A stretch of 64,000 nt of DNA from Methanosarcina sp. 2.H.T.1A.6 (lineage in GTDB: Archaea; Halobacteriota; Methanosarcinia; Methanosarcinales; Methanosarcinaceae): the NCBI RefSeq assembly GCF_000979455.1, contig NZ_JJOY01000006.1, positions 115,622-179,621 on the forward strand, written 5' to 3'. The position numbers and the translations under genes are program-made. Below the pieces are notes generated by a model. It had not been told where the DNA came from. It saw only the letters and a list, made by a program, of their open reading frames with translations, and made no database searches. Of this stretch, positions 12 to 46,874 are shown piece by piece; position 1 is the stretch's first letter; each line of letters opens with the position of its first letter.

Positions 12-94
12 GTGAGCGGAACCAACTGGGTTGACTTTGAATTAAAGAAGAAGTTGTTGGTGTGTTTGGGAAGTTTGGATTGGAATCCGCTCAC
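12..94 (-). ncRNA. Candidate small RNA, copy 1 of a three-member family
   Basis: A perfect 10-bp inverted repeat (TGTGAGCGGA at 11-20, its complement at 86-95) encloses about 65 nt. Read on the minus strand, a TATTTATA box (118-125) lies 23 nt before the first base of the stem, the normal spacing from an archaeal TATA box to the start of transcription. Two further copies at 478-568 and 1183-1254 have the same terminal stem sequence and box spacing. This copy is less C-rich inside than the other two. That it is transcribed is inference. Confidence 0.45.
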
Positions 95-117
95 AAATGC
101 AAGTATACAACTTTAGT

Positions 118-125
118 TATAAATA
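118..125 (-). promoter_or_regulatory. TATA box for candidate sRNA copy 1
   Basis: TATTTATA on the minus strand, ending 23 nt before the GTGAGCGG start of the element. The same octamer lies at 592-599 and 1277-1284 before the two sister elements. Confidence 0.4.
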
Positions 126-260
126 CTTATTTAATATATTTAGTATATTCTCTTGCCTGCCTGATTCAGTGTTCCTTTACATGTAAAACTCTTTTTATTT
201 TATTCTTTCGAGTTACAGTTATTTCAAAAGGTTCCCAGGTATTAAACCTGTAATCCGTAT

Positions 261-357
261 GATAACAGTTAAGATTAGTTAAGATAAGTTGAGATAAATT
301 GAGATAAGCTGGGATAAGTTATGATAAGTTAAGATAAGTTAAGATAAATTGAGATAA
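261..357. repeat. Degenerate tandem repeat, about 10 bp unit
   Basis: About nine imperfect copies of a GATAAGTTAA-like unit run between sRNA candidates 1 and 2. No coding potential is seen. It looks like a simple minisatellite of the kind seen in many other gaps of this window. Confidence 0.7.
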
Positions 358-477
358 TGCAGGCCTTATTGAGATCACATATGGTAAAGTTAAGAAAAGT
401 CTAAAAAAGTTAAGAACTGTTAAGATAATTATCTTATTTTTAAATAAAGTTGAGAGAAAAAATCGTGAGAAAAGTTT

Positions 478-568
478 GTGAGCGGGCTTGGGGAGTTGGG
501 GGAATAGTTGGGGGAATAGTTGGGGGATATGGGTTTGGGGTTATACTATGGAAAAGAGGCCCGCTCAC
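478..568 (-). ncRNA. Candidate C-rich small RNA, copy 2
   Basis: A perfect 10-bp stem (GTGAGCGGGC at 478-487 with its complement at 559-568) bounds a core whose minus strand reads as runs of four or five C separated by AACTAT-like spacers. The plus strand therefore holds six G-runs between 490 and 540 and could fold as a G-quadruplex. On the minus strand a TATTTATA box (592-599) ends 23 nt before the first stem base, and a T-rich stretch follows the 3' end. The C-runs would be single-stranded in the RNA and complementary to G-rich ribosome binding sites. The family resemblance among three copies is seen; expression and function are inference. Confidence 0.5.
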
Positions 569-591
569 TTAGCATGAGTAATATTACATCC

Positions 592-599
592 TATAAATA
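592..599 (-). promoter_or_regulatory. TATA box for candidate sRNA copy 2
   Basis: TATTTATA on the minus strand, 23 nt before the element's first base at 568. Confidence 0.4.
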
Positions 600-895
600 G
601 CTTTCTATAATATACATTATAATTTATAATTACAGTTTTATAGTTACTAATTTCTCAAACTGTTCTTCTCAATAATGTTTTTCTGGAACCTGTGCAGTCA
701 GATAATGGGTCTCAGGGTAAAAATATGTGCAAAATAAGAAATATAAAGCCTTTAACAAAAAGAGTAAATTAAGTTATTACTTGTAGTAATTGTTGGACAG
801 TCTGGCTCGTTCAAGCAGATTAATTTACGGGCAATTAACAATGCTTTTCGGTCGGAGGTTGATTTATTATCTTATTTCCGTGACAGCATTTCCAT

Positions 896-1005
896 TATTA
901 ATAGAGTTTAAAATAGAGTTTATTAATAGAGTTTAAAATAGAGTTTATTAATAGAGTTTAAAATAGAGTTTATTAATAGAGTTTATTAATAGAGTTTAAA
1001 ATAGA
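896..1005. repeat. Tandem repeat, 25-bp unit
   Basis: Four to five copies of a 25-bp AT-rich unit built from ATTAATAGAGTTT and AAAATAGAGTTT halves; one copy lacks the second half. It is noncoding and lies between sRNA candidates 2 and 3. Confidence 0.8.
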
Positions 1006-1182
1006 GTATTACCTGGTATTATCCTGAAATACGCCTGAATCGCCCTGCAAAACTGGCTTGACTTCTATGGTCATTTTTTACAAGCCTATCAATAGTATCC
1101 TGATAATAGTATCTTATTGACAGTATCCTGATGATAGCATAATATGATAAGATCACATAAACAGGTAGCAATATAATTCGTA

Positions 1183-1254
1183 TGAGCGGGTTGGGGAGTA
1201 TGAATTGGGGTGTTGGGGGGTTGGGGTTATCTTACAAAAGAGAGACCCGCTCAC
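1183..1254 (-). ncRNA. Candidate C-rich small RNA, copy 3
   Basis: A 9-bp inverted repeat (TGAGCGGGT at 1183-1191, complement at 1245-1253) encloses a core with four C-runs on the minus strand between 1193 and 1226. A TATTTATA box at 1277-1284 stands 22 nt upstream of the presumed first base (1254). Just inside the stem, copies 2 and 3 share the string GGGGTTAT and an AAAGAG block, so they derive from a common ancestor. Transcription is not shown by the sequence itself. Confidence 0.5.
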
Positions 1255-1276
1255 ATATTACATCATGTTAATCTCG

Positions 1277-1284
1277 TATAAATA
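1277..1284 (-). promoter_or_regulatory. TATA box for candidate sRNA copy 3
   Basis: TATTTATA on the minus strand, 22 nt before the predicted start at 1254. The intervening stretch shares ATGTAATAT with the copy 2 promoter. Confidence 0.4.
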
Positions 1285-45798: not shown

Positions 45799-45903
45799 AC
45801 GGATTTCTTCCATACGGATTTCTTCCATACAGATTTCTACCATACAGATTTTTACCATACAGATTTCTACCATACAGATTTCTACCATACAGATTTCTAC
45901 CAG
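45799..45903. repeat. 15-bp tandem repeat between the two transporter genes
   Basis: Seven copies of ACAGATTTCTACCAT. The unit is a multiple of three, so the reverse frame reads as repeated Met-Val-Glu-Ile-Cys; that frame is not a gene. Confidence 0.9.
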
Positions 45904-45917
45904 TTTTTTCCTTTTCC

Positions 45918-45930
45918 AAAAAATATATAT
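45918..45930 (+). promoter_or_regulatory. TATA box of the second EamA transporter gene
   Basis: AAAAAATATATAT centred 28 nt before the ATG at 45954, exactly as for the first transporter; leaderless transcript expected. Confidence 0.5.
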
Positions 45931-45953
45931 CTGCAGTCTTTTAATTCTCGAAT

Positions 45954-46874
45954 ATGCCAGTTCAGGGAAACTCTTTCAAGCCGTACTCCGAGGTCATAAC
46001 AGGCAGTATCATTTATGGCACTATAGGAGTTTTTCTGGACAGGGTCCAGGACATGTCCGTAGGGTCTATTCTCTTCTGCAGGCTCTTTTTCGGGTTATGC
46101 ATGATTTTCTTTTATCTGCTGATGAGCGGAAGCCTTGAACAGCTCAGGCCCGGCAGGAACAAAAAATATCTTCTGCTGCTGGGTTTTCTGAATGCGATAA
46201 CAGGCATATGCTATTTCTCGGCTATAAGGTACAGCGGAATTTCCGTTGCTGTCCTGCTCCTTTATACTGCTCCTGTATATGTCAATCTGCTTGCTCCTTC
46301 AATCCTTGGAGAAAAAAATAACAGCAAAAGCCTACTGCCTCTTTTTCTTTCAGTTGCAGGGGTATTATTTATTACCCGTCCCGGAGAGGTCCTGGCAAGC
46401 CTGAGTACAGGGTCCGATTTTATGAAAGGCCTGTTATTCGGCCTGCTTTCAGGGCTCTCCTTTGGCACCACCATAATAACGATCCGCTACCTTAGGCATG
46501 ACTATACAGGGATATCCCAGACTTTCTGGCTGACCGGAATAAGCCTTCTCTTTATGCTGCCGTCTGCCCTTTCAACTCCCATCCCTGTCTACTTTAGAAA
46601 CTTCGGTACTCTGCTTCTCTTCGGTTTGACCATTACACTTGCAGCCATCCTCTACCTCAAAGGAATTTCGGGCATAAGGGCGCAGACAGGCAGCATTCTT
46701 GCCCTGCTAGAACCTGTATCGGGAATTTTCTTTGACACTGCAGTCCTGAGAAACCCTCTCTATATCTCAACTTTTCTGGGCTGTGTCCTCATCCTGACAG
46801 CGGCTTATCTTGTGAGCCAGGCCAGGGACGCAGAAGAAGTCCCTGAAGATTCCCTCCCCTCACCGCTTGCCTGA
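45954..46874 (+). CDS. EamA/DMT-superfamily transporter, second of a pair
   Basis: 306 residues, ten helices, two EamA repeats; the segment YGTIGVFLDRVQDMSVGSIL mirrors the first transporter. Helix-loop motifs RYSGISVAVLLLYTAPVYVN and the C-terminal AQTGSILALLEPVSGIFF are typical. Substrate unknown. Its last 15 bases overlap the 3' end of the convergent fdhB gene, which limits space for a terminator. Confidence 0.88.
   Translation: MPVQGNSFKPYSEVITGSIIYGTIGVFLDRVQDMSVGSILFCRLFFGLCMIFFYLLMSGSLEQLRPGRNKKYLLLLGFLNAITGICYFSAIRYSGISVAVLLLYTAPVYVNLLAPSILGEKNNSKSLLPLFLSVAGVLFITRPGEVLASLSTGSDFMKGLLFGLLSGLSFGTTIITIRYLRHDYTGISQTFWLTGISLLFMLPSALSTPIPVYFRNFGTLLLFGLTITLAAILYLKGISGIRAQTGSILALLEPVSGIFFDTAVLRNPLYISTFLGCVLILTAAYLVSQARDAEEVPEDSLPSPLA

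Follow-up and report, generated by a model that had tools for sequence, protein, structure and literature searches.

The left end of the window, meaning the whole 64,000-nt stretch of DNA that was analysed (G000:C52:115622-179621, within a 4.07-Mb genome), very probably carries three transcribed stand-alone RNA genes on its minus strand, copies A, B, and C, as inferred from the conservation of their orthologues, the spacing of their promoter boxes, and covariation in their terminal stems. These genes appear to belong to an RNA family that is absent from Rfam and is kept at one or more copies in nearly every Methanosarcinia genome. The products are most likely trans-acting small RNAs (sRNAs), which would act on selected G-rich sites or titrate a C-binding protein.

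Direct reading of the sequence confirmed the inverted arms that the first-pass annotation had noticed in all three elements (Table 1). The elements form an intergenic array between rfcL (the replication factor C large subunit gene, L007), a convergent gene that ends left of the window, and tRNA-Val (1853-1926), and they combine a promoter with an intergenic position, as archaeal trans-encoded sRNAs do. The minus-strand folds of A, B, and C had energies of -22.7, -18.5, and -17.3 kcal/mol, respectively (z of -5.6, -7.1, and -5.2), and 0 of 200 shuffles were as stable, whereas the plus-strand folds had z values of only -2.4, -1.5, and -1.3.

Table 1. Candidate RNA genes in the window and their promoter boxes (positions count from the first letter of the window)
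Feature	Position	Strand	Description
RNA copy A	12..94	-	83 nt; first base 94; stem GTGAGCGGA/TCCGCTCAC; loop C/A/U-rich
RNA copy B	478..568	-	91 nt; first base 568; stem GTGAGCGGGC/GCCCGCTCAC; UUUU tract; six C runs, including CCCCAACUAUU repeats
RNA copy C	1182..1254	-	73 nt; first base 1254; stem GTGAGCGGGT/ACCCGCTCAT; UUUU tract; C runs; ACUCCCCAA adjoins 3' arm
TATTTATA box, copy A	118..125	-	23 nt before RNA start
TATTTATA box, copy B	592..599	-	23 nt before RNA start
TATTTATA box, copy C	1277..1284	-	22 nt before RNA start

The picture of a three-member family with a shared terminal repeat and exposed runs of C stood in part. Arms are present in all three elements, but the closing pair of copy C is G-U (its distal arm reads TATGAGCGGG), and it has no perfect GTGAGCGG repeat; C runs are exposed in B and C, but copy A, though C/A-rich, is without any run of four or more C; and the three window genes have relatives, copies D, E, and F, elsewhere in the same genome. 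Covariance model R1 matched copies A, B, and C with E values of 8e-4, 1.3e-15, and 2.8e-19, respectively. Within Methanosarcina, B and C have larger loops with more C runs and A is degenerate in its C runs; copy A appears to be a derived, A-type member.

The sequence between the RNA genes is itself repetitive. A dispersed, AT-rich repeat of about 93 bp with a conserved AAAGCCTTT lies between B and C (712-804), and four more copies with 77-79% identity are found in the genome (two on C44 and one each on C50 and C16). Tandem arrays occupy positions 267-425 and 895-1007 (AGTTAAGATA x9 and the 25-bp TTATTAATAGAGTTTAAAATAGAGT x4.5, respectively).

The box spacing of 22-23 nt ahead of the first base, reported in the first reading for all three copies, was confirmed; on the plus strand the boxes read TATAAATA. 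Among orthologues, the distance from the end of the best TATA-like box to the stem was 22 nt for every C copy and 23-24 nt for every B copy; it was 23 nt for three of the five A orthologues, the other two having their best match elsewhere, and mostly 23-26 nt in other genera. In the copy D type, the box ends 30-33 nt before GTGAGCGG. Copy D has an outer helix of differing yet pairing sequences, GAGUA/UACUU versus AAGAU/AUCUU in two species groups, which makes the RNA about 9 nt longer, and the 23-nt spacing would be restored because the RNA can start about 9 nt earlier through this helix. As read from copy D, the promoter spacing appears to track the end of the stem.

Conservation was sharply delimited. 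Four further loci were fetched for copy A, and the aligned orthologue sets comprised 5 A, 18 B, 15 C, and 20 D sequences. In most of the flanking DNA identity was about 0.3-0.5; across the box and the RNA it was mostly 0.8-1.0, and it had fallen back close to background by about 10-20 nt past the terminal stem. Past the stem, a search for an intrinsic terminator found only a mild T excess at 6-10 nt. Boxes, stems, and loops are kept in orthologues across the genus, in agreement with the earlier argument that a chance origin is improbable. Both-sided changes occurred at 5 of 9 stem pairs in alignment A4 (23 cells; 99.1% paired) and likewise at 5 of 9 in the distant alignment A5 (26 cells; 98.1% paired); both alignments were fitted to the stem, and slid controls were only 32-56% paired. 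The covariation score was reached by none of 500 shuffles. Judged by these compensatory changes, the elements form a structured non-coding RNA family, and the fixed box spacing and covarying stem support the proposal that they are genes for small RNAs, read from the minus strand under an archaeal promoter.

Three further copies were found in the genome. Copy D (C22:280142-280212) was found by an exact stem pattern search, and copy E (C17:16071-16128; stem ACGAGCGAG/CTCGCTCGT) by covariance model R2. Copy F, on the minus strand of C7 at about 45,900-45,975 (L302), has a TATATATA box, a U-tract, AAUAACCCCCCAUACCCCCCAACUCCCCAA, an added internal hairpin, and a 12-bp terminal stem (TGGGCATCTGGA/TATCCAGATGCCCA) unlike the stem of the other copies. 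Several copies of F-related genes occur in other Methanosarcina genomes, with stems that are altered and still pair.

A covariance search of Methanosarcina genomes, suggested in the first-pass annotation, was carried out with R1, which was built from 15 sequences; at E up to 1 it had a match in 30 of 31 genomes of the genus. At E up to 0.5 the same model reached 102 of 112 genomes of the family, covering 12 of 14 genera. The second model, R2, built from 38 sequences and applied class-wide at E <= 0.01, matched 215 of 238 Methanosarcinia genomes in 34 of 39 genera, among them 146 of the 151 good ones (97%), with 1-15 copies each. Outside Methanosarcinia there were no matches in about 284 genomes, and all 104 positives in a phylum-wide sample (n=391) fell within the class. 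A simple stem pattern, loose enough that chance matches occur among its finds, had a match in 29 of the 31 genus genomes, and its C-rich matches recurred as A, B, C, and D types. In 84,980 species genomes, an exact 22-base pattern gave at least 119 stretches, and among the matches listed all were from Methanosarcinia or archaeal, namely, Methanosarcina, Methanolobus, Methanococcoides, Methanohalophilus, Methanosalsum, Methanomethylovorans, Methanothrix, Methanoperedens, and ANME-2; this pattern had no match in viral contigs. No Rfam 15 family matched at the gathering score or at E up to 5.

Some genomes and loci stood apart. An ANME-related genome of f5 (G181) had fifteen family members. In other genomes, at L136 and L138, two copies lay in tandem only 158-176 nt apart, and a separate TATA-like box preceded each copy. 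At L119 and L122 (genus g11, probably Methanolobus), the stem was TTGCGCGGG/CCCGCGCA(A/U) and the upstream TATA match was poor; these members are perhaps regulated differently. Cold-induced sRNAs are reported in that genus. In the small class genomes of genus g6 (G040-G045) and of f6 (G112 and G113), R2 found no member, and these are candidate family losses.

In the form common among distant members, the RNA is 48-62 nt long and consists of the stem (G/A)(U/C)GAGCGGG, a short U-tract spacer, ACUAACCCCCACUCCCC(A/U)A, and the 3' arm. The common ancestral form is an RNA of about 50-60 nt with a stem, a U-tract, and then a G-free loop ending in ACUAACCCCCACUCCCCAA. Across 94 distinct RNAs, loop G content was 2.5%, a U-run of at least four was present in 91, and the longest U-run was 4.97, versus 2.69 +/- 0.09 in shuffles; C-runs were likewise longer than in shuffles. 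In a less redundant set, ACUCCC occurred in 37 of 52 RNAs (3.6 expected) and C4+ACUCCC in 31 of 52 (0.2 expected), counts that represent members of common ancestry and not independent events. Within a single RNA (L120), the C-rich motif was iterated up to three times.

The best explanation, tentatively preferred, is a trans-acting RNA whose C-rich motif pairs with selected G-rich mRNA sites. By the sequence evidence, each gene stands alone behind its own TATA promoter and encodes a non-coding RNA of 50-90 nt, in which a blunt terminal stem of 9-10 bp forms the start and end of the RNA and keeps the G-free loop open; the stem would also guard those ends. In the loop, the 5' side holds a U-tract and the 3' side holds C-rich recognition motifs (ancestral ACUAACCCCCACUCCCCAA, with C runs iterated in B and C). 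An Sm-like (Lsm) protein may bind the U-tract, a suggestion drawn from the tract itself; counting against it, the pairing of another M. mazei sRNA was unaffected by purified Lsm-like proteins (PMC3510493). The C-rich motif would pair with a few G-rich mRNA sites of the GGGAG/GGGGG type, and the absence of CCUCC would avoid general Shine-Dalgarno pairing. The flanking genes, named from sequence reading and not by profile search, vary by locus (rfcL, LarB-like, MFS, HppA-like, CoA-disulfide-reductase-like, Sua5/YrdC, MnhG-like, CofD-like, and Top6B), and no common neighbour that might give a clue to function was found across loci; the varying neighbours argue for action in trans.

A DNA-level element that yields no RNA, such as the ends of a mobile element, a palindrome linked to replication, or a site bound by a protein, would explain the terminal inverted repeats and the partly invariant stem core, and it would suit the presence of rfcL beside the array, of Top6B at six other fetched loci, and of a DnaG-like gene near an E-type copy. 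Fixed promoter spacing, strand-asymmetric folding, and sharp conservation limits, however, together with compensatory stem changes, a loop more conserved than the arms require, positions stable across genera, and the absence of matches in viral contigs, make such an element highly improbable. The specific case of transposon or MITE ends, which the first-pass annotation had raised as ends lacking promoter conservation, was excluded by syntenic orthologues across the genus and family and by the conserved promoter and loop. A general anti-Shine-Dalgarno sRNA that masks G-rich ribosome sites, possibly of the sRNA41 family (sRNA41 of M. mazei is reportedly the subject of Buddeweg et al. 2018), would match the pairing with such sites originally proposed for these RNAs, and C-rich loops do pair better with positions -25..+5 than with the flanks, as any C-rich sequence would. 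Among 249 Methanosarcina gene-start regions, located by crude gene calling over 464 kb, however, 77-80 of 80 dinucleotide shuffles of loops A, B, C, and F paired as strongly as the loops themselves or more strongly, and loops D and E were average, with 55-57 of 80 shuffles pairing equally or better. The anti-Shine-Dalgarno core CCUCC was depleted, occurring in 1 of 52 loops versus 12.2 +/- 3.0 expected, a depletion that may arise in part because ACUCCC already takes up U and C, and the motif complement GGGAGTGGGG was not enriched at gene starts relative to permuted words (1.5 Mb). The cdhA, cdhB, and cdhC leaders of both ACDS operons (six leaders, computational comparison, later operon genes left out) were ordinary predicted targets, falling between the 32nd and 84th percentiles for B-F and between the 12th and 94th for A, and neither targeting of ACDS in the manner of sRNA41 nor membership in the sRNA41 family thus found support. 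From the shuffle test, the CCUCC depletion, the complement test, and the ACDS leaders, general masking of ribosome sites therefore appears unlikely, and the anti-Shine-Dalgarno explanation as a whole is improbable.

The mRNA-pairing step of the preferred explanation likewise showed neither a ribosome-site preference nor enrichment of the complement at gene starts. Leaders with GGGGAGGGGGA or GGAGAGTGGGG were examples of predicted targets in the leader-pairing comparison, and a genome search for the perfect complement GGGGAGTGGGGG with at most one mismatch gave 17 sites, none within a known RNA; several lay within the RNA genes themselves and the rest mostly in apparent coding sequence. Selected mRNA targets are possible, as is a protein partner. 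The latter is central to a less probable but still substantial alternative, in which the C-rich motif and the U-tract bind an RNA-binding protein, for titration (CsrB-like) or in a stable particle. The near-invariance of the motif across the class, its presence up to three times per RNA, the up to 15 gene copies, and the way the loops shun ribosome-site pairing, with a complement that is not enriched at starts, all favor protein binding, but no protein gene is a consistent neighbour across loci and copy A is without long C runs. Other explanations take up the rest of the probability.

The Methanosarcina sRNAs described in the literature found are limited to the genus or to a few species. A single-stem family in 97% of good class genomes, including uncultured ANME-2 and Methanothrix, would point to a core function in the dominant organisms of the methane cycle; its covariance model is an addition to genome annotation, and M. 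mazei and M. acetivorans are genetically tractable, which makes a direct test feasible. It is a more speculative and rather doubtful proposal that the family dates back to the Methanosarcinia ancestor and supplies, in multiple copies, a protein-titrating or particle-forming RNA. If this were true, the titrating RNA would be a global regulator in methanogens and ANME-2 methane oxidisers. To our knowledge, no titration RNA of that kind is known from archaea.

The class-wide family is described neither in Rfam nor in the literature found on archaeal sRNAs; individual members may already stand on published transcript lists. In reviews such as PMC5867862, M. mazei sRNA41 is reported to mask ribosome sites on the polycistronic ACDS transcripts and to be repressed under N limitation. 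As far as that description allows a comparison, the present RNAs resemble sRNA41 as intergenic sRNAs of Methanosarcina and differ from it in that the ACDS leaders were not unusual predicted targets of their loops. The trans-acting M. mazei sRNA162 is 191 nt long, has three stem loops, and binds a ribosome site through an unstructured linker; M. acetivorans and M. barkeri are the only species with reported homologues (PMC3510493). Unlike sRNA162, the present family is 50-90 nt long, single-stemmed, and class-wide. A report on Methanolobus psychrophilus R15, of the same class, gives 195 sRNAs, nine of them conserved, multicopy, intergenic, and cold-induced (PMC5378194), and by that description the nine resemble the present conserved multicopy intergenic RNAs; R2 found only two to five family members per genome in the Methanolobus-like genus g11. 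The closest counterpart in working style, by analogy, would be LhrC1-5 of Listeria monocytogenes, a multicopy, G-poor family with redundant UCCC in unpaired stretches (PMC4132741). Like LhrC and the C-rich sRNAs of Firmicutes, the archaeal family is multicopy and G-poor, with unpaired UCCC motifs; unlike LhrC, which has several hairpins and a terminator, it has one terminal stem, an open loop, and an archaeal promoter, and its loops are without a general preference for ribosome sites, leaving single targets possible.
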